Below, piece after piece: positions 28,973 to 48,329 of a stretch of DNA of 64,000 bases. The notes below the pieces were generated by a model. It was not told the origin of the DNA and ran no database searches. It was given only the letters and a program-made list of their open reading frames with translations. Source of the DNA: Nilaparvata lugens (Eukaryota; Arthropoda; Insecta; Hemiptera; Delphacidae); NCBI RefSeq assembly GCF_014356525.2, contig NC_052518.1, positions 101,366,767-101,430,766 of the forward strand, in the 5' to 3' direction. Both the position numbers and the translations under genes were made by a program. The first letter of the stretch is position 1, and each line of letters opens with the position of its first letter.

Positions 28973-30045
28973 TTTTCCTACAGATACCCTGAAAAGTGAC
29001 CATTTGTGCACTGATTGCAGGCTGCAAAGAATCACTTTTCCGCACTAGTGCGCAAAGTGATTCTTTGCATACTCCAGATTTGCAGCATGACAACGCAAAA
29101 TAGTTAGTAGGTTATATGGAGCACCAGTGCAGCAAAATCAAAATGAAGTTGGTAACAGTGACTGCTGTGGCTGCTATAGTGAGCAGAGGTGCAACCAAGC
29201 ACAACGCGCTAATTATTAGTATTAGATATTATAACCAAGGACAACGACAGCACAGTGCCACCACAGCACACACCACACAGCTGCCCCCCGCCATTCAAAC
29301 ACTACTACATTATTCAGGCAATTTTACCCATAATTACCCACTTTTCATATTCAATGGTAGCTGTAGGAAAAATTTAATGTGAAATACGTGCACAAAGTTC
29401 GTTTGCTGCACTCAAGAAACCATTCCACCCTCGCCTACGGCTCGGGCGTAAACGTTTCTTTCGATGCAGCAAACTGTCACTTTGCGCACTAGTTGCACAA
29501 ATAACTATTTCCTACAGTTACCTTGAAAAGTGGCCATTGCTGCACTGATTACAGAACGCAAAGAATCACTTTTCCGCTCGGGAAAATTTTTTCTGCACTC
29601 CAGATTTGCAACATGGCAACGCAAAATACTTAGTAGGTTATATGGAGCAACAGTGCAGGAAAATCAAAATGAAGTTGGTAACAGTGACTGGGCTGCTATA
29701 GTAAGCAGAGGTGCAACGAAGCACAACGAGCACCTTATTAAGTAGATATTATAACCAAGGACAACATTTTTATTCAATTTGACAATAAATTAAGGTTTTT
29801 ATCAATAAAAAAATTACACAGAAATACATTTCATGCATTTCAGGCAATTTTACCCATAATTACCCACTTTTCATATTCAATGGTAACTGTAGGAAAAACT
29901 TAATGTGAAAATACGTGCGCAAAGTTCCTCTGCTGCACTCAAGAAACCATTCCGCCCTTGCCTACGGCTCGGGCGTAAACGTTTCTTTCGGTGCAGCAAA
30001 CTGTCACTTTGCGCACTAGTTGCACAAATAACTATTTTCTTGATG
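28973..30045. repeat. Two tandem CCTACAG repeat elements inside copy A
   Basis: The first (28973-29511) and second (29512-30045) share TGCACTGATT, AAAGAATCACTTTTCCG, GCAGAGGTGCAAC and the closing CACTAGTTGCACAAATAAC. They lie inside a MITE (starts 28777, ends 30209), so the order of events was MITE, then this element, then the segmental duplication. Confidence 0.7.
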
Positions 30046-30613
30046 ATAACATATAATTGGTTATTTACACAAGAATGAACAGTTGATATCACATCAGATG
30101 AATCGGAATCAGCTATTATCTATAGAAGGCAGTGGCAAGGCAGAGAGTCGGTCTCGCTGTTCTCCTATCCTCCTCCACTGTCATTACAACGTGGGCTTCT
30201 CCACTATAGATGATAGATACATTGGGAAATAATACAAAGAAGGCGAAGAAGAAGAAAAAAAGTATTCACGCTAATATCACTCTATATTACAGAATTTGCA
30301 TCACTTAAAATAATTATTATCACATGAGAAGGCAATAATAGACAAAAGTGAAAGTATTAGTTACATATTGGAAAACCTGTGATTAGAAATTGGATTATTA
30401 CTATATCGCAATCTAAATCGTGAACTGTCGATTATTTGGAATATTTCTGGAGGAATGGTGACACATTATGCGTCGACCAATCAGAATCGAGAATGGGCGT
30501 GTCCATGTACTACCTCGTTCTCGCTTGTGATTGGTCAAATCTGTTTGACACAGTGGTCGGTAGGTGGCAGCACTCACAAGGACGAATAACACAAAACAAG
30601 AGAGACCTTCGAC

Positions 30614-30694
30614 GAAAAAAGAAGAAGAAGAAGAAGAGAAAAAGAAGAAAGAATAAGAAGAAGAAGAAGAAGAGAAGAAGAAGAAGAAGAAGAA
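30614..30694 (+). repeat. (GAA)n tract at duplication joint
   Basis: An interrupted GAA/AAGAAG run lying exactly between copy A and copy B. The Arg/Lys-rich open frame across it is an artefact. Confidence 0.9.
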
Positions 30695-32775
30695 GTGGAG
30701 GAAAATTAAATTTTGTATATAGATTCTTTATTCACCGAGGATGGTTATAGGTCTATTTTGAATTCAGTATATGGATTTCATTAGATCAAGTTCTCAGATT
30801 TTCAAGTTTTTTATTAGCTCTCGCGGAGCACGGGTTACCTGCTAGTCTACAATGGTTTGTAAATGCATATGGAATTGACAATTTATATTACAATTCATAG
30901 TATTTATAGTGAGGTGCACGCCATAATGGCAGTATTTGGTTACCGTTGATGCAGCTATCATTCCAAAAACTAGATTGTGCAATCCTTTACCACCTCCACA
31001 ACATTGCCAGATCGTTTTCCAAAAACTTGGGATTATAGGTAATCAACAAAATATCCGATCTCAATTACGAAAATTCATTAATTGATCATTGAAAAATATT
31101 TTTTCCTACAGATACCCTGAAAAGTGACCATTTGTGCACTGATTGCAGGCTGCAAAGAATCACTTTTCCGCACTAGTGCGCAAAGTGATTCTTTGCATAC
31201 TCCAGATTTGCAGCATGACAACGCAAAATAGTTAGTAGGTTATATGGAGCACCAGTGCAGCAAAATCAAAATGAAGTTGGTAACAGTGACTGCTGTGGCT
31301 GCTATAGTGAGCAGAGGTGCAACCAAGCACAACGCGCTAATTATTAGTATTAATATTATAACCAAGGACAACGACAGCACAGTGCCACCACAGCACACAC
31401 CACACAGCTGCCCCCCGCCATTCAAACACTACTACATTATTCAGGCAATTTTACCCATATTACCCACTTTTCATATTCAATGGTAGCTGTAGGAAAAATT
31501 TAATGTGAAATACGTGCACAAAGTTCGTTTGCTGCACTCAAGAAACCATTCCACCCTCGCCTACGGCTCGGGCGTAAACGTTTCTTTCGATGCAGCAAAC
31601 TGTCACTTTGCGCACTAGTTGCACAAATAACTATTTCCTACAGTTACCTTGAAAAGTGGCCATTGCTGCACTGATTACAGAACGCAAAGAATCACTTTTC
31701 CGCTCGGGAAAATTTTTTCTGCACTCCAGATTTGCAACATGGCAACGCAAAATACTTAGTAGGTTATATGGAGCAACAGTGCAGGAAAATCAAAATGAAG
31801 TTGGTAACAGTGACTGGGCTGCTATAGTAAGCAGAGGTGCAACGAAGCACAACGAGCACCTTATTAAGTAGATATTATAACCAAGGACAACATTTTTATT
31901 CAATTTGACAATAAATTAAGGTTTTTATCAATAAAAAAATTACACAGAAATACATTTCATGCATTTCAGGCAATTTTACCCATAATTACCCACTTTTCAT
32001 ATTCAATGGTAACTGTAGGAAAAACTTAATGTGAAATACGTGCGCAAAGTTCCTCTGCTGCACTCAAGAAACCATTCCGCCCTTGCCTACGGCTCGGCGT
32101 AAACGTTTCTTTCGGTGCAGCAAACTGTCACTTTGCGCACTAGTTGCACAAATAACTATTTTCTTGATGATAACATATAATTGGTTATTTACACAAGAAT
32201 GAACAGTTGATATCACATCAGATGAATCGGAATCAGCTATTATCTATAGAAGGCAGTGGCAAGGCAGAGAGTCGGTCTCGCTGTTCTCCTATCCTCCTCC
32301 ACTGTCATTACAACGTGGGCTTCTCCACTATAGATGATAGATACATTGGGAAATAATACAAAGAAGGCGAAGAAGAAGAAAAAAGTATTCACGCTAATAT
32401 CACTCTATATTACAGAATTTGCATCACTTAAAATAATTATTATCACATGAGAAGGCAATAATAGACAAAAGTGAAAGTATTAGTTACATATTGGAAAACC
32501 TGTGATTAGAAATTGGATTATTACTATATCGCAATCTAAATCGTGAACTGTCGATTATTTGGAATATTTCTGGAGGAATGGTGACACATTATGCGTCGAC
32601 CAATCAGAATCGAGAATGGGCGTGTCCATGTACTACCTCGTTCTCGCTTGTGATTGGTCAAATCTGTTTGACACAGTGGTCGGTAGGTGGCAGCACTCAC
32701 AAGGACGAATAACACAAAACAAGAGAGACCTTCGACGAAAAAGAAGAAGAAGAAGAAGAGAAAAAGAAGAAAGAA

Positions 32776-32806
<31 letters not shown>

Positions 32807-32850
32807 AAGAAGAAGAAGAAGAAGAAGGAGAGGAAGAAGAAGAACAAGAA
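30695..32850. repeat. Segmental duplication, copy B
   Basis: Repeats 28568-30694 with the same element order (Helitron end at 30845, MITE start at 30905, tandem CCTACAG elements at 31106-32162, MITE end near 32335) and then runs into a longer GAA tract (32738-32850). Confidence 0.92.
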
Positions 32851-33630
32851 CAAGAATGAACAGAAAAACTTTGAGAATCAACAGACAAGTTTCGGTCCGC
32901 TGCTTCTCCAAATGAAGTTTGTGCAATGTCAGAAGAAGAAGACGAAGAAAAAGACAGGAGAAGAAGAAGGTGGAGAGGAGAAGAAGAAGAAAAGAAGAAG
33001 AAGAAAAAGTATTCACGCTAATATCACTCTATATTACAGAATTTGCATCACTTAAAATAATTATTATCACATGAGAAGGCAATAATAGACAAAAGTGAAA
33101 GTATTAGTTACATATTGGAAAACCTGTGATTAGAAATTGGATTATTACTATATCGCAATCTAAATCGTGAACTGTCGATTATTTGGAATATTTCTGGAGG
33201 AATGGTGACACATTATGCGTCGACCAATCAGAATCGAGAATGGGCGTGTCCATGTACTACCTCGTTCTCGCTTGTGATTGGTCAAATCTGTTTGACACAG
33301 TGGTCGGTAGGTGGCAGCACTCACAAGGACGAATAACACAAAACAAGAGAGACCCTTGACGAAAAAGAAGAAGAAGAAGAAGAAGATGAAGAAGAAGAAG
33401 AAGAAGAAGAAGAAGAAAGAAGAAGAAGAAGAAGAAAGAAGAAGAAGAAGGAAGAAGAAGAACAAGAACAAGAATGAACAGAAAAACTTTGAGAATCAAC
33501 AGACAAGTTTCGGTCCGCTGCTTCTCCAAATGAAGTTTGTGCAATGTCAGAAGAAGAAGACGAAGAAAAAGACAGGAGAAGAAGAAGGTGGAGAGGAGAA
33601 GAAGAAGAAAAGAAGAAGAAGAAAAAGCCG
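32384..33630. repeat. ~624-bp tandem duplication nested at end of copy B
   Basis: GTATTCACGCTAATATCAC starts at about 32384 and again at 33008. Both units run through CGTCGACCAATCAGAATCG, a GAA tract and ACAGAAAAACTTTGAGAATC to GAAAAAG. The first part of the unit also occurs at 30260, so the segment is present three times. GAA tracts lie at the joints. Confidence 0.88.
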
Positions 33631-38608: not shown

Positions 38609-38904
38609 AGTGTAAACGGAGGGGGTGTTTCTACTCTTCTATAATATTTGCTGAAATTATACTACTAAACTTCTGTTTGAATCCTTGATTGGTTGGGAGC
38701 TTACAGTTGATTATCATCATTATTTAGCACAGATTATCATCATTATTTAGCACAGATTGTCATCATTATTTAGCACAGATTATCATCATTATTTAGCACA
38801 GATTATCATCATTATTTAATTGTCACCTATTCTAGCAACTAGCAACTACGAGCCAGGAAATTCAATGAAAAATACTTTCAAAATTCAACCTCAAGTTTAT
38901 TGAA
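38609..38904 (+). repeat. Left terminal inverted repeat
   Basis: Matches the reverse complement of 48117-48329 over GGAGGGGGTGTTTCT, TATAATATTTGCT, TGATTGGTTGGGAGCTT, TACGAGCCAGGAA and ATTCAACCTCA. Compared with the right copy it lacks about 20 bp just after AGTGT and has gained a 23-bp tandem array (38709-38818). Confidence 0.85.
38709..38818 (+). repeat. 23-bp tandem repeat, ~4.8 units, inside left TIR
   Basis: GATTATCATCATTATTTAGC plus ACA, nearly identical units with one G variant. Absent from the right TIR, so it arose after insertion or was present in only one end. Confidence 0.9.
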
Positions 38905-38912
38905 TAAAAAAT

Positions 38913-40069
38913 CTAGTGTGGTACACTCACACAGCTTTCCTTGCCCATGGAACTGTATGCCTCATTCTTAAACGAGAATAATTTAGGGGAATAACATAAC
39001 GACGATTGGCGGCAACATATTTGAAACTACGATCAGACTAGTGTTTATGGGTATATATACTTGTTTTCAGAGTACTTTTTCCTTTGTGTGAATTGTGAAA
39101 TTCGGTGATTTTTTCAAAAGTCGTCAAAACTGCTGTTCTACAGATGAAATATCACGACTATGTGTTCTTTTTATAAACTGCTCTACCTACCTACTTCATG
39201 CACGAGAAGAAGTTCACTAAGTCCATTTCTCAAGGATGGGGTGGACCCCATTGGTTTCCCAGGAAAAGACTCATGCCAGTTGATAGAGCTGATAAATAAC
39301 TATACAGGGTATGAATTTTAAATAAATCGGTCAAATCATTTTTGAGAAAATCGTGTTTTTTTTAGTAATTATCTGCCATTTTTCTCAAGAATATTACGGA
39401 GCTCCTGCAATTTTCCCAGAAATGAGACTCAAGTCAGTTGATAGGGCTTATGAATAGCTATCCATGGTATAAATTCGAAGAAAATCGTTAGAGCCGTTTT
39501 CGAGAAAACCGTGAAAAACATGGTTTTTTAGTCATTATCCGCCATTTTTCTCAAGAATATTACGGAGCTCCTGCGATTTTCCCAGAAATGAGTTCAAGTC
39601 AGCTGATAGGGCTCATAAATAGCTATCCATGGTATAAATTTGAAGAGAATCGTTAAAGCCGTTTTCGAAAAAACCGTGAAAAACATGGTTTTTCAGTCAT
39701 TATCCGCCATTTTTCTCAAGAATATTAGGGAACTCTTAAAATTTTCCCAGAAATGAGACTCATGTCAGTTGATAGGGCTTATAAATAGCTATTCATGGTA
39801 TAAATTTGAAGGAAATCGTTAGAGCCATTTTCGAGAAAAACGTGAAAAACATGGTTTTTTAGTAATTATCCGCCATCTTGAATTGAATTTCTTATTGTCG
39901 GATCCTCATGGTATAAGGACCTTAAGTTTAAAATTTCAAGTCAATCGGTCAATTAGGAATGGAGTTATCGTGTTCACAGACATACACACATACACGCGCA
40001 CACACACACACACACAACACACACACACACACACACACACACACCACACACACACACACACACACACCA

Positions 40070-40163
<94 letters not shown>

Positions 40164-40187
40164 ACACACCACACACACACACACACC
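38913..40187 (-). mobile_element. TE with ~178-bp internal repeats, copy 2 (inverted, cut by gap)
   Basis: Reverse orientation relative to 3934-5070: begins CTAGTGTGGTACACTCACAC, passes through about three ~178-bp monomers (39330-39890), and ends in a (CA)n tract (39983-40187) that runs into the assembly gap, so the outer end is hidden. It is inserted next to the left TIR of the virus-like element. Confidence 0.8.
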
Positions 40188-40287
40188 NNNNNNNNNNNNN
40201 NNNNNNNNNNNNNNNNNNNNNNNNNNNNNNNNNNNNNNNNNNNNNNNNNNNNNNNNNNNNNNNNNNNNNNNNNNNNNNNNNNNNNNN
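40188..40287. other. Assembly gap (100 N)
   Basis: Exactly 100 N, a conventional size for an unknown gap, placed after a long (CA)n tract. Anything could be missing here, including genes of the virus-like element. Confidence 0.98.
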
Positions 40288-40600
40288 TTAGATATTGTTA
40301 AAAGTATTCAATCATACATAAATATTATTTGAAGTGCTTGGAATGTAAAGGAAATTACGAACTGAATTGATGCTGAGGAAATATTATTTGAACTGCTTAG
40401 ATATTGTTAAAAGTATTCAATCATACATAAATATTATTTAAAGTGCTTGGAATGTAAAGGAATTACGAACTGAATTGATGCTAAGGAATATTATTTGAAC
40501 TGCTTAGATATGTTAAAAGTATTCAATCATGCAACAATGATATTTCAATAACTGATATTACTCACTTTATGCAGAGAATTCGATGATAATCTGATGTAGA
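40288..40600 (+). repeat. ~108-bp tandem repeats, 2.3 copies
   Basis: TTAGATATTGTTAAAAGTAT starts at 40288, 40397 and (as TTAGATATGTTAAAAG) 40504. Units also share TGAAGTGCTTGGAATGTAAA. The first copy may start inside the gap. Confidence 0.88.
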
Positions 40601-40648
40601 GATCTGAAACAAATAAGACACTAATCAAATATTTTTCAACAGAAACGT

Positions 40649-41002
40649 ATGCTGGAACAGGAGGACTCCTCCCTCGTCCCTCTGATAAAGGAGGGAGAAA
40701 TGGGCTTTGTTGATTTGATCAACAAACCTGTGAGCAAGCCGTGGGTCCCATTGAGAGAATTGGAGGAGGACCATCCCTACCGAATCGTCAGTGTGAGGGA
40801 ACATACCAATCAGCACGGACGCAGGATAATATTGAAAATCATCAATGCAGGAAGCAAATGTGAGGTATATCTGCCTCAAAGATTTGCTTCCTGCATTGAT
40901 GCAGCGAAAATTCGCGATTTTAATCTTACTTGTAAAAATTATGTTTTGGTAGTTACGCATAAGTGTCCAAATTGGACAGATATAAAAATTGTTAAAGCAT
41001 AA
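40649..41002 (+). CDS. Small protein, possible OB-fold ssDNA-binding
   Basis: An intact 117-codon frame. Its centre has the pattern PLRELEEDHPYRIVSV...GRRIIL...CEVYLPQRFASCID, which resembles small OB-like proteins I associate with Polinton-like elements in arthropod genomes. A role in ssDNA binding during replication is inference. It is the first gene after the gap, with a possible poly(A) signal AATAAA at 41077. Oddly, its second half is covered by two large DNA palindromes (40840-40901 and 40952-41044), one crossing the stop codon, so residues around IINAGSK and the C-terminus may be secondary additions. The antisense frame is also open because of these palindromes. Confidence 0.6.
   Translation: MLEQEDSSLVPLIKEGEMGFVDLINKPVSKPWVPLRELEEDHPYRIVSVREHTNQHGRRIILKIINAGSKCEVYLPQRFASCIDAAKIRDFNLTCKNYVLVVTHKCPNWTDIKIVKA
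40840..40901. repeat. Perfect 20-bp inverted repeat within the OB-like frame
   Basis: CATCAATGCAGGAAGCAAAT at 40840-40859 is the exact reverse complement of 40882-40901, with a 22-nt loop. It is inside the coding frame. Confidence 0.95.
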
Positions 41003-41044
41003 CAATTTTTATATCTGTATACAATTTGGACACTTGTGTGTAAC
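40952..41044. repeat. ~42-bp-arm palindrome over the stop codon
   Basis: GTTACGCATAAGTGTCCAAA...ATAAAAATTGTT is mirrored by AACAATTTTTAT...CACTTGTGTGTAAC around the 7-nt loop AAAGCAT. The TAA stop of the 117-aa frame lies at the loop edge. Confidence 0.9.
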
Positions 41045-41582
41045 AAATTGTATATATGTATGTATGCGAGTAGTGTAATAAAATAAGTGTACATTTGATA
41101 AAAAATTGTTTTCAATTCTTACCTGTTGTTGTTGTTGTTGTTGACGATCTTGATAAGTTTGTAATGAATATCACACAGAAGAAATGGTTCAGCTGCTCTG
41201 TTGTGAATGATAATTTAAATAAGGTGGACAGGTCTTTTATAGTTTGTTGTGAGCATGCTCAGTAGAGTTAGCGCTAGAGGCAGACAGCTGTGCAGGCAAG
41301 CGCTGCCAGCTTCTCGCGCCCCTCCTTCTTGTGCTCCCACAGATGTGGGTGGCCCGTCATCATTTCTTCCCTTTTCAAATCACATTCACCTTTTCAGATT
41401 TGAAATAATATTCTTATCATTCAAGCAATGTATCACTTCAATCTGAGAGTATAGCATTAGATGTAGAAATATGAATTCACTTCCAACTCATTGGTTGAAC
41501 ATTAAACCAAATCAAGTTGATGTATTGATTAATTAATTAACCTCAGTTAATGTTCAACCATTGAGTTGAAAGGTAATGAAAA
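41045..41582. promoter_or_regulatory. Intergenic region with candidate promoter
   Basis: TTTATAG (41237-41243) precedes TCAGTA (41259-41264), an insect-type initiator at plausible spacing. A (GTT)n tract lies at 41125-41145. A 51-bp direct repeat partner (41433-41483) and a 22-bp inverted repeat (41484-41505 with 41547-41568) sit just before the PLA2-like frame. Roles are inference. Confidence 0.4.
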
Positions 41583-41940
41583 ATGGTATGTAGGAGAAAA
41601 AAGCAGAGTTTGAGAAAAAAGCAGAGTTCGAGGAAACGGGGTAAAGGAATCTTGAGTTCAGCGGCGAGAGTTTTTAAAGGTTTGGCAGGTAATGTAACAT
41701 CAACTATTCTAAATAAGGTAATTGATAACCTTGGAGAAGAATATCATATTCCCGGATACGAGTGGTGTGGCCCGGGCACCAAGGTTAATGAAAGGTTAAG
41801 AGAGGTGATCAAGGCATAAATTCGTTAGATAAGCTTGCAAGGCCCACGATATAGCCTATACTCAAAATAGTGATAATAAAACTCGAGCGGTAGCTGACAG
41901 GGCTCTAGCGAACGCTGCATGGGACATTTTCAAAAATCCT
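41583..41940 (+). pseudogene. Parvovirus-type phospholipase A2-like domain, frameshifted
   Basis: A basic N-terminus (MVCRRKKQSLRKK) leads to an open frame that stops at 41820. It contains the calcium-loop-type GPG motif preceded by PGYEW. The catalytic His-Asp pair (at 41845-41850) and the following helix lie in a different frame, and the end of the domain is in the frame of the ORF at 41919. I place single-base shifts near 41799, 41842 and 41930-41945. In parvovirus VP1 and in some Polinton/adintovirus-like elements such a domain helps virions leave endosomes. As it stands it cannot be made as one protein from this DNA without frameshifting or editing. Confidence 0.75.
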
Positions 41941-42680
41941 CAAACCCTCTTGCCGAGAAAGCACTTAGCTATCTTGTTACAAACGTTATGAAAGCTAAAG
42001 CGGCATTTGGTGGGACTTTGAGAAAGAAGAAGAAGAAGAAGGGGGAGAGGAGAAGTTATAGTAACGATATTAGACGCAAAGCTATAGCTCAGTTGAAAAA
42101 GCATATTGCAGGAAAAGGATATTTTTTGAAGCCTTTTCCTAAAAGTGGTGGTAGACTTCTAGCCCCACCCCCGCCAGCATCATATGGAGTGAGTTTATTC
42201 CCCCAAGTTAAGAAACGTAGAACAACAGCGAAGAAGAGTAGGAAGAAGAAGAAGAAACTTATTATACGTGCAAACGTAAATACTATGAAGATTGAAATTC
42301 ATTCTGATAAAGCCATTGATTTAACACGTTCTGATTCGATTGCTAAGATACTTGGTTTTGATAATGTTGTTTTGCAGCCAAATAAATGGCATTATTCCAA
42401 ACATTTGGTTAACATAACAAGCGTTGACAGTATTCTTGTTGAGTGTAATTTAGCTTGCGGCAGTTATTCTGAGGGAAAACAAAATCATATAATCTACGAA
42501 TTTTTACCAAAGGTTCCTAGCGGTTATTTAATAAACGAAGTACCATCACCGATTATTTATGTACCTTTGAATACGCATCGAATTCAAACTATTAATGTAA
42601 AGGTAACGGACCAGAACGGATCGTTTATTGATTTCCGCGGAGATACAATTACAATTAGGTTGCACATACGCGAAAAGTAA
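41919..42680 (+). CDS. PLA2 tail, basic linker and penton-like minor capsid domain
   Basis: A 253-codon frame; the ATG at 41919 may not be the original start, because the first ~30 residues are the C-terminal helix of the PLA2-like domain (EKALSYLVTNVMKAK). Next come basic clusters (residues ~36-45 and ~107-120), a GKGYFLKPF segment and a proline run (LLAPPPPASYG). From about residue 125 a beta-rich domain follows (SIAKILGF, IIYEFLPKVPSGY, PIIYVPLNT, ITIRLHI), resembling the penton-like/minor capsid protein of Polinton-like elements. Minor capsid proteins occupy vertices in double-jelly-roll virions. Its stop overlaps the next start (TAATG). Confidence 0.65.
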   Translation: MGHFQKSSNPLAEKALSYLVTNVMKAKAAFGGTLRKKKKKKGERRSYSNDIRRKAIAQLKKHIAGKGYFLKPFPKSGGRLLAPPPPASYGVSLFPQVKKRRTTAKKSRKKKKKLIIRANVNTMKIEIHSDKAIDLTRSDSIAKILGFDNVVLQPNKWHYSKHLVNITSVDSILVECNLACGSYSEGKQNHIIYEFLPKVPSGYLINEVPSPIIYVPLNTHRIQTINVKVTDQNGSFIDFRGDTITIRLHIREK

Positions 42681-42862
42681 TGGGTTATCTTATTTTCAAC
42701 CCACGTTCGAATAAGAACAATCAAGTCATTAGAGAAAGGAACGCGATAGCGACAACACCTAAAAACAAACGTGCTTTGTCGGCTAAAAGCGCGAGAATAT
42801 TAGAAAAGTTGGGTTTTATAGTCGATTGGCGACATGTTAGGCGGGGGAGCGGCGGCAATTAG
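42680..42862 (+). CDS. 60-aa protein of unknown function
   Basis: The start overlaps the upstream stop (TAATG) and the end overlaps the capsid start by 29 bp, a layout expected of a real viral gene and not of a chance frame. It is basic (NPRSNKNNQ, RHVRRGSGGN) with a short helix-like KSARILEKLGF. No known domain recognised. Confidence 0.5.
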   Translation: MGYLIFNPRSNKNNQVIRERNAIATTPKNKRALSAKSARILEKLGFIVDWRHVRRGSGGN

Positions 42863-44075
42863 TGAAATACTGGATGTGGAGACAGACCTTCAGTTTTATA
42901 ATGATATTACTAAATTCCAATTTCACACTCATACAGTTTATTCGGGACAGGAAATAAAAAACTCTGACGAGGCACGTATTGGCATAAATTCTTTAGATGT
43001 CTATTCTTTACCTTGTAAATCATTCATATTGATTGAGGGAACAGTTAACTGTACAAAACCGGGAAAAGACCCAGCCGATACACCAGTTGCAGCAGGCTAT
43101 AAATTAAGCAGTAACGTAATCGGTAACCTTTTTGACGAAATACGATATGAATTAGCAGGTCAGCAAATTTCTAAATCAAGATTGATTGGATTAACATCCA
43201 CAATTAAAGCTATATTGGTGAAAAATACTCTCGATAAAAACACATATCACTTGGCTGGTTTTGACAGAGCAGGATATGAGCTAGCAGATAATACATTCAC
43301 TTTCTGTGTTCCGCTGAAATTAATCCTCCCGTTTTTTGAAGATTTTCAAAGAATAATTTTAAATTTGAAACAGGAACTCGTCTTATTGAGGTCACCGACA
43401 GATCTAAATTGTGTTGAGTCTCAAAGCGGAACAAACGTTAGTGTGAAAATTACAAAACTGCAATGGCGCATGCCCTACATAACTTTAGAAGATCATGTAA
43501 GACTGAAATTTTTGAGACTGCTCGATGCTGACACTCCACTGAAATTAGGTTTCCGCCATTGGGAAATTTGTGAATTACCAAATTTGCAAAATTCACTTAA
43601 CCATTCTTGGGCGGTTCGTACCACATCGAGTTTTGATAGTCCAAAATATGTTATAATTGCATTTCAAACTGATCGTAAGAATAAAATAAATAAATCAATA
43701 TCTAATTTCGATAGCTGCGGTATTTACAATGTTAAAGTATATTTGAACAGTGAGTATTATCCATATGAAAATCTGCTAGGTAAGAAGGAGGTTTTATACC
43801 GCATGTTCTTGGATTTCGCACCCTCGTATTATAATCATTCAATCAATAGTGAACTCGGAACAGAAATCGATTTTAAAACATTTTGTGATTCAACACCACT
43901 GATTGTTGTAGATTGTTCACACCAACCAAGTCATTTGAAATCATCGACAGATGTTCGTATTGAAATGGAATTTAAAAGTGCAGTACCTGCAAATACTTCC
44001 GCTTATTGCGTTTTAATTAGCGATCGTGTGATGGAATATACACCTCTCACGAGTATGGTGAAAGAAGTTCAGTAA
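42834..44075 (+). CDS. Double-jelly-roll major capsid-like protein
   Basis: A complete 413-codon frame without stops. It resembles the double-jelly-roll (DJR) capsid-like family that is widespread in hemipteran genomes and related to Polinton/adintovirus major capsid proteins. Recognisable blocks are ILIEGTV (~residue 65), NLFDEIRYELAGQQI (~97-111), FTFCVPLKLILPFFEDF (~155-171), ITKLQWRMPYITL (~207-219), SWAVRTTSSF and YVIIAFQTDRKN (~258-282), NVKVYLNSEYYPYENL (~299-314) and the closing SDRVMEYTPL. Length fits the family. The Gly-rich start MLGGGAA was chosen as the first ATG of the frame. Such proteins form trimeric capsomers of icosahedral virions. That this frame is intact while the PLA2-like domain is not suggests recent insertion or retained function. 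Confidence 0.85.
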   Translation: MLGGGAAAISEILDVETDLQFYNDITKFQFHTHTVYSGQEIKNSDEARIGINSLDVYSLPCKSFILIEGTVNCTKPGKDPADTPVAAGYKLSSNVIGNLFDEIRYELAGQQISKSRLIGLTSTIKAILVKNTLDKNTYHLAGFDRAGYELADNTFTFCVPLKLILPFFEDFQRIILNLKQELVLLRSPTDLNCVESQSGTNVSVKITKLQWRMPYITLEDHVRLKFLRLLDADTPLKLGFRHWEICELPNLQNSLNHSWAVRTTSSFDSPKYVIIAFQTDRKNKINKSISNFDSCGIYNVKVYLNSEYYPYENLLGKKEVLYRMFLDFAPSYYNHSINSELGTEIDFKTFCDSTPLIVVDCSHQPSHLKSSTDVRIEMEFKSAVPANTSAYCVLISDRVMEYTPLTSMVKEVQ

Positions 44076-44099
44076 TTTGTTGATAGAGTGCATCACTGC

Positions 44100-44165
44100 A
44101 GGTTATATAAGGTGTGTACTGCAACAAATGTAAGCCATTATCAGTTTCACCTTTGAACAGTCAAC
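44100..44165 (+). promoter_or_regulatory. TATA box and initiator before the 300-aa gene
   Basis: TATATAA at 44104-44110 and TCAGTT at 44141-44146 lie upstream of the ATG at 44166. The spacing is slightly longer than the insect optimum. This suggests the downstream gene has its own RNA polymerase II promoter. Confidence 0.5.
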
Positions 44166-45068
44166 ATGTCCTATTCTTTGTGTTCTGATATTTTGGATAA
44201 GCCGCAAACTCGCTCTATTGGTATTCAGTGCGATCTTGATAGTTTCTATTATGAAGCAAGCTGCAGTACGCCGAAGCCGCTGGAGGTGGAGGAGGAGGAG
44301 GGGAGAGACGCAGGATTACCGAAGCCGCTGCAGGTGGGGGAAGACAAAGGAGGATTTGAGGAACCCCCCGCCGCGCTCGCCGCCCCCGCCGCCGCCGCTG
44401 AGGGGAGAGACAAAGCCTACGAAGAGAAAGAAGGTCAAGCGACTGCTAAAATTGCTACAGTTGATCTTCACTGGTTTAAACAAGATTGTAATCAAATTAT
44501 TGTGAAAGAACTTGCCATAATTGATCAGTTTAATAATTATATTGTGTTCCATTTCAAATCGCCATTTGCAAAGTCAGAATTGAGTGCAAAATTGTATAAC
44601 GATGCAACATGGTTAGAACGTCACTATCATAAAATAAAATGGGAAGATGGAGATTTAGAATACAATGAGTCATTAATTCGTGATTACCTTGCAGCTTATG
44701 AGAAAATTTTCACAAAAGGAACTGAGAAAGCAAAGTTTTTAAGAAGATTGCATAGCAACGTACAATGCATACCAGAGGATTTTCCAAAACCTGATTTCAG
44801 CTTTTTCACTAGTTCATGGTGTTATGCTGCATGCAACATTCATAAAAATAATCCACATTCTCGGTGTGCCTTATTCTCCGCCCAGCATTATAATTCTTTG
44901 TTGTTTAAAAATATGTATCAAACAAATAATTTCTTGTGCGAAAACAATCGAATGCAAAGTATGAAAATGGCTCCGATGTACACAATTCACAGAAAAGAAA
45001 CTTTGCTCGTTATGGATTCTTCTACAACGGAAAGGATCTACAGTGTGTTTATTGCCAGCATGCATTGA
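44166..45068 (+). CDS. Nuclease-like protein of unknown function, 3' end frameshifted
   Basis: A 300-codon frame. Residues ~40-90 are an acidic and Ala/Pro-rich low-complexity region. Residues ~95-230 form a compact domain (IIVKELAIIDQFNNYIVFHF, WLERHYHKIKWEDGD, FTKGTEKAKFLRRLH) resembling an uncharacterised family common in insect virus-like elements, possibly an RNase H-fold exonuclease relative (inference; I cannot point to a complete catalytic set). A Cys/His-containing segment follows (CYAACNIH...CALF). The last ~30 residues (after MYTIHRKE) look out of frame: the adjacent frame continues with a BIR-like motif (44936-45157). Confidence 0.6.
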   Translation: MSYSLCSDILDKPQTRSIGIQCDLDSFYYEASCSTPKPLEVEEEEGRDAGLPKPLQVGEDKGGFEEPPAALAAPAAAAEGRDKAYEEKEGQATAKIATVDLHWFKQDCNQIIVKELAIIDQFNNYIVFHFKSPFAKSELSAKLYNDATWLERHYHKIKWEDGDLEYNESLIRDYLAAYEKIFTKGTEKAKFLRRLHSNVQCIPEDFPKPDFSFFTSSWCYAACNIHKNNPHSRCALFSAQHYNSLLFKNMYQTNNFLCENNRMQSMKMAPMYTIHRKETLLVMDSSTTERIYSVFIASMH

Positions 45069-45157
45069 GACTGCATAAAGCGCGTACATGTTGTCTATCG
45101 TCAATTGATGAAGAAAGACCGCTTAATTACTCTATAATAGTTCCTGCCTACACCTAG
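44936..45157 (+). pseudogene. BIR-like zinc motif in the shifted frame
   Basis: From about 44990 this frame reads NFARYGFFYNG, then CVYC, then histidines and cysteines (HKARTCC). The aromatic GFFY.G..D.V.C..C signature is that of baculovirus-IAP-repeat (BIR) domains, which bind caspases or their regulators. The upstream part of a BIR (NNRMQSMKMAP) is in the frame of 44166-45068, so a frameshift near 44985-44995 splits it. The C-terminal half is shorter than a standard BIR (the C-to-H spacing is reduced), so folding is doubtful. Confidence 0.45.
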
Positions 45158-45179
45158 TTTTCTTCATTCGTTCAACATC

Positions 45180-45455
45180 ATGGATCCGAGAAAGTGGTTG
45201 GCTCCTGACAACGAATTGGAAGTGAGGTTAAAAAACTGTATTGATTGGTACGATGAGTGTGAAAGTGCAATTAGGAAATCAACTCCTGAAAATTATAGTT
45301 TGGCGAAGCAATTGAAAGACATTTTTCTAAGCACGGTGAATTTAAATGATATAAGAGACTATCTATGTTATTATCGTCCTCATAATTTATGTATAGATAA
45401 GCTAATTAGAATTGAAGATGAAGTTATGTGTTGTTGTAGTGAAATGTGTAAATAA
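45180..45455 (+). CDS. 91-aa hypothetical protein
   Basis: Begins MDPRKWLAPDNELEVR and is predicted mostly helical, with a cysteine cluster at the end (EVMCCCSEMCK). The stop overlaps a canonical AATAAA (45451-45456), suggesting compact viral-style 3' ends. I recognise no domain. Confidence 0.5.
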   Translation: MDPRKWLAPDNELEVRLKNCIDWYDECESAIRKSTPENYSLAKQLKDIFLSTVNLNDIRDYLCYYRPHNLCIDKLIRIEDEVMCCCSEMCK

Positions 45456-45522
45456 ACGTTTTCTGCCTTCAAACGATTTTTCATTCCGATATCCCATTCA
45501 CGTTTTTTAGTTTAGTTGCTGC

Positions 45523-45660
45523 TTAGAGCTAGAGCAGACACCACGTGTGTGGTAATCTTTAGTGCGCGTGTGCCTATAACACGTGCATCTCATTAATTTA
45601 GAGCTAGAGCAGACAGCACGTGTGGGGTAATCTTTAGTGCACGTGCATATCATCAATTTA
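45523..45660. promoter_or_regulatory. Duplicated ~70-bp block with four CACGTG E-boxes
   Basis: TTAGAGCTAGAGCAGACA starts two imperfect copies (45523-45597 and 45598-45660). Each has two CACGTG palindromes, four in about 130 bp, directly upstream of the 104-aa frame. CACGTG is the core site of bHLH factors. Whether any binds here is inference. Confidence 0.5.
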
Positions 45661-45703
45661 GAATTCTTTCCCCCTCATTCGACTCGCATCAAACATCTGC
45701 AAG

Positions 45704-46018
45704 ATGCAGTGTTATGGTTTTTCAAAATTCAAAAAATTATCTCGTCTCTTGATGTCAATTTCATTTAATGAATTTGATTCAATTGCGAAGAATATTAAAT
45801 TTTCAACAGGATGTCAAGATGTTGATTTACCGTTAACAAAAACAGAAAATGTACACTTTTCGATTCTATCTGAGATTTTCGAACTGCTCAATATTCTAGA
45901 CAGCGGTCATCTACATTATGATTGTACAAATGATTCGCCATTATCTGTTGTTAAAAATTCCGATGAACTTTGGAAATGCTTGTACGATATTGCAGATAAA
46001 AAATGTAAAAGAACGTAG
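45704..46018 (+). CDS. 104-aa hypothetical, possibly death-effector-like
   Basis: A helical protein: FKKLSRLLMSISFNEFDSIA at the start and ILSEIFELLNILDSGHL in the middle give a helix pattern reminiscent of death effector domains (LL..IS..EF... and ..IFELL...). That is a weak resemblance by eye. If right, together with the BIR-like motif upstream it would form an anti-apoptotic accessory module. Otherwise unknown. Confidence 0.4.
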   Translation: MQCYGFSKFKKLSRLLMSISFNEFDSIAKNIKFSTGCQDVDLPLTKTENVHFSILSEIFELLNILDSGHLHYDCTNDSPLSVVKNSDELWKCLYDIADKKCKRT

Positions 46019-46880
46019 AGATTTATAGCATTAGATGAGAGAGAATTTCTCAATTCAATTAGATATAGAGAGAGTCATTGACCTCACTTTAATATGGATT
46101 CACTTTAATCTGTCACCAAGGGAATTTTTCCCTCTCATCTATACTGGGAGAGAATTTCTCAATTGATTCTTATCTCCTTTCGGAAAGGGTGGAGGAAAGA
46201 GATGACATGAGTAAAAGAAGGAGATCTCTATCTCTATCATAGTAGAGCGAAATGGATTCACTTCAATTTGTCACCAAAGGAATTTTTCCCTCTCAAGAGA
46301 TTTTTTCCCCCACATCTTTAGAATTCACCTCAATCTGTCACCATAGCATCAGATGTAGAAATATGAATTCACTTCAATTTGACAGTAGACAGAGAGGGAA
46401 TTTTTCCTCCTAAAAGGGAAATTTTTTTTCCCTCACCTGGAGAGAGAGAGAGATATCTCCCTCTCTCTCTCTATCCCCCTCACCTCCACTGGACAGGGGG
46501 AAGGGGAAATCTATTTTTAGAAAGAGAGAGAAAGATATATCTCCCTCTCACTCTCTCCCCCTCACCTCCACTGGACAGGGGGAAGGGGATTTAGAAAGAG
46601 AGAGAAAGATATATCTCCCTCTCACTCACTCCCCCTCACCTCCACTGGACAGGGGGAAGGGGAAATCTATTTTTAGAACACCCCCCGCCCTACGGGCGGG
46701 GGAAGGGGAGGAGGGATGGACGAGGGGGGAGAGGGGGGAGGGGGATCTCGAGCAAAAAAGTGGCTTCAATATCCCAAATATACTCTACTCACGCAATTAA
46801 TCTCCCAATTCTACTTCAACTAATTTCATCGGTTTCTTCTTCAAACTAGATCAAAATTAATGATAATATAACGAGAACTT
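46019..46880. repeat. Low-complexity and tandem repeat block
   Basis: The motif GGAATTTTTCCCTCTC with ATTCACTTCAATTTGTCACC recurs at 46080-46380. It is followed by about three copies of a ~75-100-bp unit (TCCCCCTCACCTCCACTGGA, CAGGGGGAAGGGGA, GAGAGAAAGATATATCTCCC) at 46440-46676 and a GC hairpin CCCCGCCCTACGGGCGGGG near 46682-46700. The 71-codon frame within it is repeat-derived. Confidence 0.8.
46325..46375 (+). repeat. 51-bp direct repeat partner of 41433-41483
   Basis: AGATGTAGAAATATGAATTC plus ACTTC and the preceding CACCTCAATCTG...TAGCATC match 41433-41483 with few differences. The two copies bracket the capsid cassette. A partial third copy (TAGCATTAGATG) is at 46025. Confidence 0.75.
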
Positions 46881-47735
46881 GACAATTTGTCCCTCTGAAT
46901 GGAAAACAGATCCATTCAGAGGACCGAAGCTCGCACACCGTTACATGTTTTCCCGGTTACGTCTCAATTCGAACTGCGGCCTATTCACTGAAAATTATTC
47001 CCCCTCCACGAGCGTTGAGCATAATTTCCAGTGGAAAAGCCAAAGCTGCAAAAAGGTCAATGGTCGCACAATTCCCAAATACAGTAACTTTTTCGGCAAG
47101 AAATTAAAACTGCATTTGAAAAATGCACGAAAATTGCTTTAATTTCGACAACTAAGCAACAAGTTAGCAAATTCAAACAGGACAGAGTCAATTCTCACAA
47201 TAAAAACACAGGGTTCAACATACAGTAAAAATCAAAGTTCATACAGTTCAAAAACCTGAAAAATAATGTAAGATACACAAGAACAACTACAATAATCTGT
47301 AATAGTGTTAATATTGAGTGGGTATTATTGTAAATTGTTTTTTTTGTGCGTCTTATTTTCCAGGTTTTTGAACTGGAATGAACTTTGATTCGTACTTTCA
47401 GATTTTAGTGTGAGAATATTTGACCATGTTTATTGAATGTGCTAGCTTGTTGCCTAGTTGTCGAAGTTCAAGCAATTTTCGTGAATTTTTCAAATACAGT
47501 TTCAATCTCATGTCGAAGAAGCCACTATATTTGGAAATTGTACGAGCATTGACCTTTTTGCAGCTTTGGCTTTTCCACTGGAAGTTATGCTCAACGCTCG
47601 TGGTGGGGAATAATTTTCAGTGAATAGGCCGCAGTTCGAATTGAGACGTAACCGGGAAAACATGTAACGGTGTGCGTGCCTCGGTCCTCTGAATGGGTCT
47701 GTTGCCCATCAAGAGGGACAAATTGAAAAGTTTTC
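46880..47735. mobile_element. Long foldback element, ~400-bp arms
   Basis: GACAATTTGTCCCTCTGAAT...CCGGTTACGTCTCAATTCGA...GAAAAGCCAAAGCTGCAAAA on the left is mirrored on the right by TTTTTGCAGCTTTGGCTTTT...TCGAATTGAGACGTAACCGG...GAGGGACAAATTG. Homology continues to near the centre (CAGGTTTTTGAACTG / CAGTTCAAAAACCTG). It is inserted within the virus-like element and carries no gene. Confidence 0.88.
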
Positions 47736-48116
47736 CATTATCAGTACTTTTGTTGTAGTTTGTATAGTAATCTAAAATTGATAGAATCAGTAGATGTAAA
47801 TTTAAGAGGTTAATTGTGTGCGTGAATTTAAGTTGAGTGTAGTGAGTTTCATTAGGTCTGAGTTTATTGAGTTTTGGATTAAGCGTTCTCAAAAGTAAAA
47901 TTTGAAATTGTTGAAATGGTGAGTGCCAAACTGTTGTTTTTATTTAGCTCGAAATTTAGTACATAGAATGACCGAGGCCCGAATTTAGTTGCAGCAAGTT
48001 AGCAGGTTCCCAAAATGTATAGATTGAAATTGAATATACCTTCTTTTTCTATAAATCAGTTACTGAGTAACTCAGTTTTAAAATTTGACACGATTTCTAT
48101 TGATTCTTTGATGAGT
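47736..48116. other. Right interior of the virus-like element, no gene seen
   Basis: No open frame with protein character. Old coding sequence cannot be excluded. Confidence 0.4.
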
Positions 48117-48329
48117 TCAATAAACCTGAGGTTGAATTTTAAAAGTATTTTTCATTGAAGTTCCTGGCTCGTAGTGCATTTGGATGAACGAATTCACTAA
48201 AAGCTCCCAACCAATCAAAAATTCAAATACCGGTAGATGATGTGATAGCAGTAGACTTTAGCAAATATTATATAAGAGAAGAAACACCCCCCTCCGTTCA
48301 CAAATCAATATCCCACTAAATTTCACACT
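48117..48329 (-). repeat. Right terminal inverted repeat
   Basis: Reverse complement of the left TIR (see 38609-38904). It keeps about 20 bp (TTTAGTGGGATATTGATTTG) next to the tip that the left copy has lost. Confidence 0.85.

Follow-up and report, generated by a model that had tools for sequence, protein, structure and literature searches.

A capsid-bearing element of Nilaparvata lugens is very probably a gap-cut copy of a ~19-kb Maverick/Polinton family whose ends carry a hypervariable 22-nt segment

We have analyzed a capsid-bearing element in a 64,000-nt stretch of DNA from Nilaparvata lugens. This stretch, hereafter the window, lies on C15 of the 1.085-Gb genome and supplies the coordinates used below, and L-numbered loci are stretches that were fetched from the genome. 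The element is very probably a damaged Maverick/Polinton copy, cut by an assembly gap, whose complete relatives measure ~19 kb. The complete relatives carry a leftward-transcribed block of PolB-like, integrase and ATPase genes and a rightward capsid block between long inverted terminal repeats; the window copy has lost its protease by deletion, retains a broken PLA2-type gene, and as assembled is missing its left half at a gap that edges a tandem array. By analogy with Mavericks/Polintons, the family would replicate from its ends by protein priming, its DNA would be packaged by the ATPase, protease and capsid proteins, and it would be inserted by the retroviral-type integrase. What could temptingly be read from one assembled window as a capsid-only 'mini-Polinton' is in all probability a broken copy beside a gap; a false lead is removed, and a large, young Maverick family is found in one genome. 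The ends of this family carry a 22-nt segment of near-constant length and very high diversity.

The open reading frame (ORF) of the capsid protein has at least 41 matches in the genome at ≥98% identity, two of them side by side at C3:93.24 Mb. This count is a lower bound, with 40 of 1280 capsid candidates scored. Second copies, which an earlier note made from the window's sequence had called for, are plentiful. Twenty other copies, chosen from the best-scoring capsid matches, were fetched, and all share the region from 40288 to ~46790 in part or whole. To the left of a ~110-bp tandem array, L030 carries on its minus strand a PolB-like ORF of 1188 amino acids (aa), an rve integrase (PF00665, E 4.1e-12), an A32-type ATPase (PF04665, E 2.3e-10) and two more ORFs, and on its plus strand a BIR-type ORF (PF00653, E 2.4e-20). 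L029 and L034 contain the same PolB-like/integrase/ATPase block, with the PolB match in several pieces. PolB and integrase thus sit at one place in longer copies, as the earlier note had envisaged for a deletion derivative, the block lying beside the array in three of the four copies followed to the left.

One full-length copy (L032/L030/L019) runs from AGTAGAG to CTCTACT over ~19.6 kb and has ACTGAG at both sides; its two ends, in L032 and L019, are alike over 426 bp at 98.8%. AGTAGAG marks left ends and CTCTACT right ends. Target duplications were sought in five left-end stretches, three of which reached the end, and 6-bp duplications were found in four of the five copies with both ends read (ACTGAG, ATTAGC, TACTAT and CACTAT); the flanks of the fifth copy, L013, which has an N gap, are unmatched. 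A genome-wide search with the pattern GGGGATYTCRAGCAAAAAAG-N(18-34)-TCTACT gave 559 ends (284 forward and 275 reverse), and the reversed-pattern control gave 0. Among the first 100 ends listed there are 27 inward-facing neighbours within 60 kb, with a median spacing of 19.0 kb: 16 pairs are 15-22 kb apart, 5 are below 12.5 kb and 6 are above 22 kb. These spacings indicate that the commonest form is the full-length Maverick and that shorter ones exist too. The family has the integrase, ATPase, protease, double jelly-roll (DJR) capsid, long inverted repeats with AG...CT ends and 6-bp duplications that define Mavericks/Polintons. Their length of ~15-20 kb is found in the family (median 19.0 kb), not in the window copy as assembled.

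The window copy is delimited by the following features.

38609..38904, plus strand: left arm of an outer inverted repeat, outside the element (repeat comparison)
40188..40287, no strand: assembly gap of 100 N, where the element's left half is missing (direct reading)
40288..40548, plus strand: remnant of the ~110-bp tandem array, longer in other copies (staggered hits in BLAST of the 20 copies)
46440..46678, plus strand: ~82-bp tandem repeats inside the right terminal inverted repeat, variable in copy number
46752..46789, plus strand: right terminus, made up of GCAAAAAAG, a 22-nt hypervariable segment (46761-46782) and CTCTACT
46790..46795, no strand: CACGCA, the expected 6-bp target duplication (inferred from the 6-bp duplications of four other copies)
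48116..48329, minus strand: right arm of the outer inverted repeat, outside the element (repeat comparison)

The last base of the element at the right is 46789, directly followed by CACGCA. The right arms of the window copy and of 14 of the 20 fetched copies halt at one terminal motif with differing neighbours. When the right flanks of the 20 copies were compared outward from ~46746-46792, they could not be aligned to each other at the junction; a repeat farther out is common to L011/L024 and to L013/L021, at unequal distances. The limits of 38609..48329 given in the earlier note are therefore wrong, and the inverted repeats at 38609 and 48329 were rejected as element ends because the sequence past 46789 changes between copies. 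The left partner of the CACGCA duplication was not found for the window copy. The segment 38903-40187 is a dispersed repeat that ends in (CA)n, is unrelated to the element and recurs in the window at 5078-4114 and 56135-55361. The 100-N gap directly adjoins the ~110-bp array, and 6.5 kb separate it from the right end.

The genes that remain in the window copy are listed below.

40649..41002, plus strand: 117-aa ORF, called 'OB-fold' in the earlier note, without a convincing family match
41583..41819, plus strand: N-terminal piece of a PLA2-type minor capsid protein, broken (PF08398, E 0.0088, below the cut-off)
41919..42680, plus strand: 253-aa fused ORF in which a deletion at 42246/42256 has joined the PLA2-type basic tail to the penton-like C-terminal part
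42680..42862, plus strand: small 60-aa ORF overlapping the capsid start
42834..44075, plus strand: DJR major capsid protein, 413 aa, open (PF21738, E 3.1e-89)
44166..45068, plus strand: 300-aa ORF, shortened relative to its 330-aa counterpart in L011, which matches BIR (IAP-type) weakly
45180..45455, plus strand: 91-aa ORF, the same in L011 by eye
45704..46018, plus strand: 104-aa ORF, the same in L011 by eye

Damage to this gene set is evident from comparison with relatives. Between 42246 and 42256, ~640-650 bp are absent from the window and present in 19 of the 19 fetched copies that span the point; L018 starts at this point and hence is not among them. In L011 there are three separate ORFs, a PLA2-type protein of 229 aa, a protease of 120 aa and a penton-like protein of 228 aa, and the ~650-bp stretch comprises the end of the first, the whole protease and the start of the third. 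Because the missing stretch spans three genes, the 253-aa ORF is a deletion fusion; of the penton-like protein reported earlier, the C-terminal part is present and the single intact gene is not. The adenain-type protease (PF00770 in L011, E 1.6e-4; score 21.8 bits, cut-off 21.3) is lacking in the window but occurs in all 20 fetched relatives, of which L018 has part of it and L022 has it split in two. The PLA2-type protein is open in L011 (PF08398, E 8.5e-13), and the PLA2-like domain noticed in the window is borne out as a partial domain. The DJR capsid-like protein proposed earlier was recovered with a strong family match. The 'nuclease-like' designation of the ORF at 44166-45068 found no support, the 330-aa form in L011 giving a weak BIR match (E 0.0019) under the cut-off. 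The reported lack of PolB, integrase, ATPase and protease holds for the window copy as assembled. When the entire window was searched by tblastn (E 1e-3) for seven proteins known from relatives, namely the family's PolB-like protein, integrase, ATPase and protease, the BIR-type ORF and two more left-arm ORFs, none gave a match.

Several observations weigh against the interpretation of the window element as a cut copy of a full-length Maverick. The fourth copy followed to the left (L031, L033) differs from the other three in that it runs into other repeats and an N run, with a PolB match of 42 residues only. L022 and L023 are two capsid arms placed head to head without N, and the ~1.6 kb between their arrays leave neither arm with a PolB block there; the left block is truly lost in some family members. 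Searches of Pfam (best E 0.065, unrelated), NCBIfam, PHROGs and PDB sequences gave no convincing match for the PolB-like protein, and we take it to be PolB-like from the ordered motifs YADLE, DANSLY, KxxxNxxFGK and DTDS in the 1188-aa ORF, presumably those of its exonuclease and polymerase. Finally, a genome search with the window's 38-nt end found no left-end partner for its end variant on C15 or on an unplaced contig.

As to how the left half came to be missing, an assembly break has slightly better odds than true loss. N runs also cut L012, L013, L029, L031, L038 and L041, of which L012, L013 and L031 are cut near the array or the left repeat, and these runs favour an assembly break at the window gap. 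A deletion of the left half from the chromosome itself has a substantial, if less than even, chance of being correct. It would be in keeping with the other damage in the window copy (the ~650-bp deletion and the broken gene), with the loss of the left block in L022/L023, and with the lack of any assembled left end bearing the window variant, whether close to the window or among unplaced contigs. Against it stand the position of the N gap, exactly at the array, and the N runs in the six other fetched loci, three of them near the array or left repeat.

Of the two readings given in the earlier note, the loss of a large piece, part of which the gap may hide, fits the data. The other, a distinct short element class, lacks support, and we regard as highly improbable a capsid-only class of ~6.5-7.5 kb that would depend on full elements for replication and integration. 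Five of the 27 inward pairs are less than 12.5 kb apart, and L022/L023 have capsid arms without the PolB block, as a short class would predict. The 38-nt end of the window, with one mismatch allowed, gave seven exact matches, namely its own right end and six places on C13 at 31529397-31586487 (31.53-31.59 Mb). Two inward pairs there, at 31529397-31535481 and 31579917-31586487, span 6.1 and 6.6 kb, near the window's 6.5 kb. However, C13 near 31.5 Mb is absent among the capsid matches listed and may lack a close capsid gene, a weak argument. Further, 16 of the 27 pairs lie at 15-22 kb, three copies followed to the left are long, and the lost protease and broken PLA2-type gene of the window copy are both present in relatives. 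The short-spaced ends on C13 could belong to short relatives within a locally duplicated region.

Rearranged junctions were seen in further copies. In L014 (1-2250), L017 (1-2233) and L018 (1-3167) the left block is inverted and joined to the capsid block, the joins being without N. One junction is common to L014 and L017, and that of L018 is another; the right flanks of these copies differ, so the rearranged form seems to have spread. These two junctions could reflect an inversion or a head-to-head dimer; of two 1.5-kb probes directed at this distinction, L040 gave no match, and L041 gave the array and 778 N. A third kind of junction, in L022 (7000-9901) and L023 (1-900), suggests a snap-back dimer that lacks the PolB block.

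The 22-nt segment at the ends of the family is nearly constant in length, hypervariable in sequence, equal at the two ends of a copy and freely combined over short distances. The distance between GCAAAAAAG and YTCTACK is 22 nt in all but one of 29 right ends, the exception having 21 nt; of the first 100 genome ends listed, 99 match over 49 bases and the remaining one over 48, though the pattern permitted a range of 17. Diversity per site reaches 0.47 in the 22 nt; the adjoining repeat has 0.030 over 139 aligned columns, and the capsid gene has 0.0052. For this count 33 loci from 31 copies, including the window, were tried and 29 gave an end; L009, L010, L015, L020, L022 and L025 were left out beforehand as incomplete at the right end, and L061, a second try, was also without an end. 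The 29 ends yield 25 distinct 22-mers with a mean pairwise difference of 10.4 of 22 (range 0-19). Within single copies, by contrast, the two ends differ at 0, 0, 0, 0 and 2 of 22 positions (L013, L019/L032, L026/L037, L027/L036 and L024/L039, respectively), and three further neighbouring pairs on C1 differ at 0, 0 and 3.

Cramer's V, as the measure of association between positions, is 0.63 for adjacent positions (1 nt), 0.33 at 6 nt and 0.26 at 10 nt, with 0.25 for shuffled sequences, and all four combinations occur in 136 of 210 pairs of variable columns (27 ends). The distance between 22-mers does not track capsid distance (15 copies, r 0.10, a value reached or exceeded in 286 of 2000 permutations). 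Identical 22-mers recur across separate insertions (L026, L044 and L060; L027 and L049; L023 and L051), and by eye the 22-mers resemble combinations of about four short blocks. Some right ends stop at block borders, after GGGGGAT in L009, L010 and L015 and after GCAAAAAAG in L020; in the L010 copy the left end (L059) is broken off too, after GCAAAAA. Two candidate sources of the variation were rejected. Four ends folded as DNA gave inconsistent z values (-0.55, -0.31, 1.24 and -2.61) for a hairpin, the window's end alone folding better than its own shuffles. Donor blocks within the element were sought by comparing the 25 distinct 22-mers with one full copy: for 24 of them the longest shared word measures 9-11 nt, and for the other 7 nt. 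Letter-shuffled controls average 9.4 nt, so the full copy holds no sign of donors.

The 22-nt spacing, about two helical turns, suggests that one protein complex reads the tip and the GCAAAAAAG box and that the bases between are unread. We tentatively propose, as a reading that is plausible without being probable, that the family renews this segment as an end code, with blocks exchanged or re-made within the first ~30 bases, the ends equalised, and one variant frozen by each insertion. The ends would be equalised during replication, one inverted repeat templating the other, and new combinations would arise near the start of synthesis. If true, this would be an undescribed way to diversify the ends of a protein-primed element, in which the spacing of motif and box is fixed and the sequence between them is free.

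How the blocks would change is open to two explanations, both of which we consider rather doubtful. Short tracts might be exchanged between co-replicating genomes as protein-primed synthesis starts, the ends then being equalised via the inverted repeats. The agreement of the two ends of a copy, the decay of association until at 9-10 nt it is close to the 0.25 of shuffled sequences, and the failure of 22-mers to track capsid distance are as expected from such exchange. It is hampered by the lack of donor blocks in one full copy, by protein priming being an analogy here, and by the origin of new blocks, which it does not explain. The detail that we would favour, a guess of the same low probability, is that short initiation products move between templates. 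Equally likely, old alleles may be kept diverse by selection, e.g. through a host factor reading the ends, while ordinary recombination shuffles them. Selected alleles would account for the 22-mers that recur in independent insertions, but ordinary recombination would hardly be expected to part positions only a few nt from each other and leave the neighbouring repeat almost uniform (pi 0.030). Because every insert preserves the two ends of a single replicated genome, the hundreds of ends form a natural data set. This data set bears on how linear genomes of such a type copy, equalise and change their ends, and the variable ends are what matters most here.

The capsid genes indicate that the copies are young and that the capsid is under purifying selection between insertions. 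None of 21 capsid ORFs (the window and 20 relatives) has an internal stop, the relatives having been taken from the best-scoring matches, which favours open frames. Single changes comprise 18 silent and 7 replacement, or 0.11-0.13 of the neutral expectation, and diversity is 0.0052 per site. Such selection would be expected if the element is virus-like and spreads in particles of its own.

Adintoviruses, proposed animal-tropic midsize eukaryotic linear DNA (MELD) viruses, have a capsid, adenain-like protease, PolB and integrase set of a similar general kind. Compared with them, no free-virus relative of the present family was confirmed in viral-contig scans with the PolB-like protein and the capsid, which used single-sequence queries and reach close relatives only.

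Vertebrate Mavericks, as described in PMC8097293, measure 12.7-24.6 kb and have inverted repeats of 46-1447 bp, 6-bp target duplications and conserved 6-bp end motifs, with information content that declines less inward from the end motif than outward. Like the present family, they have two opposite-strand blocks with PolB-like, ATPase, integrase, protease and major and minor capsid genes; 6-bp duplications are shared, and their size and inverted-repeat ranges cover the values found here. The ends AGTAGA...TCTACT resemble the (AGT)2//(ACT)2 and (AG)3//(CT)3 of vertebrates in that account. The integrase lies beside PolB and ATPase here, whereas that account places it in the vertebrate capsid block, and the blocks here point apart, as it describes for the cane toad only. 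The PLA2-type and BIR-type genes and the 22-nt hypervariable segment just inside the end motif also set the present family apart from the vertebrate set as described there. No report of hypervariable Polinton ends was found in the literature by title and abstract opening, with subscription journals thinly covered; supplementary figure S2 of PMC8097293 might show the same pattern.

Some further observations concern single loci. The 117-aa ORF at 40649-41002 gave no convincing match in family searches, and its single-sequence structure model (mean predicted local distance difference test score 39.9) was too poor for a structure search; L031 has at 1668-2054 a 128-aa ORF that by eye looks like a divergent second version of it. 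Just past the right end in L012 (8370-9830) there is a diverged relative with 73% and 66% protein identity (301-aa and 344-aa ORFs), which indicates that a second, older family exists. At 46873-47735 the window contains an imperfect palindrome of ~860 bp, 82% identical to its own reverse complement, which is likely a separate foldback element outside the Maverick. Direct repeats at 30000-33630 have spacings of 2.1 kb and 0.6 kb, are identical over up to 300 nt and include GAA-rich stretches.

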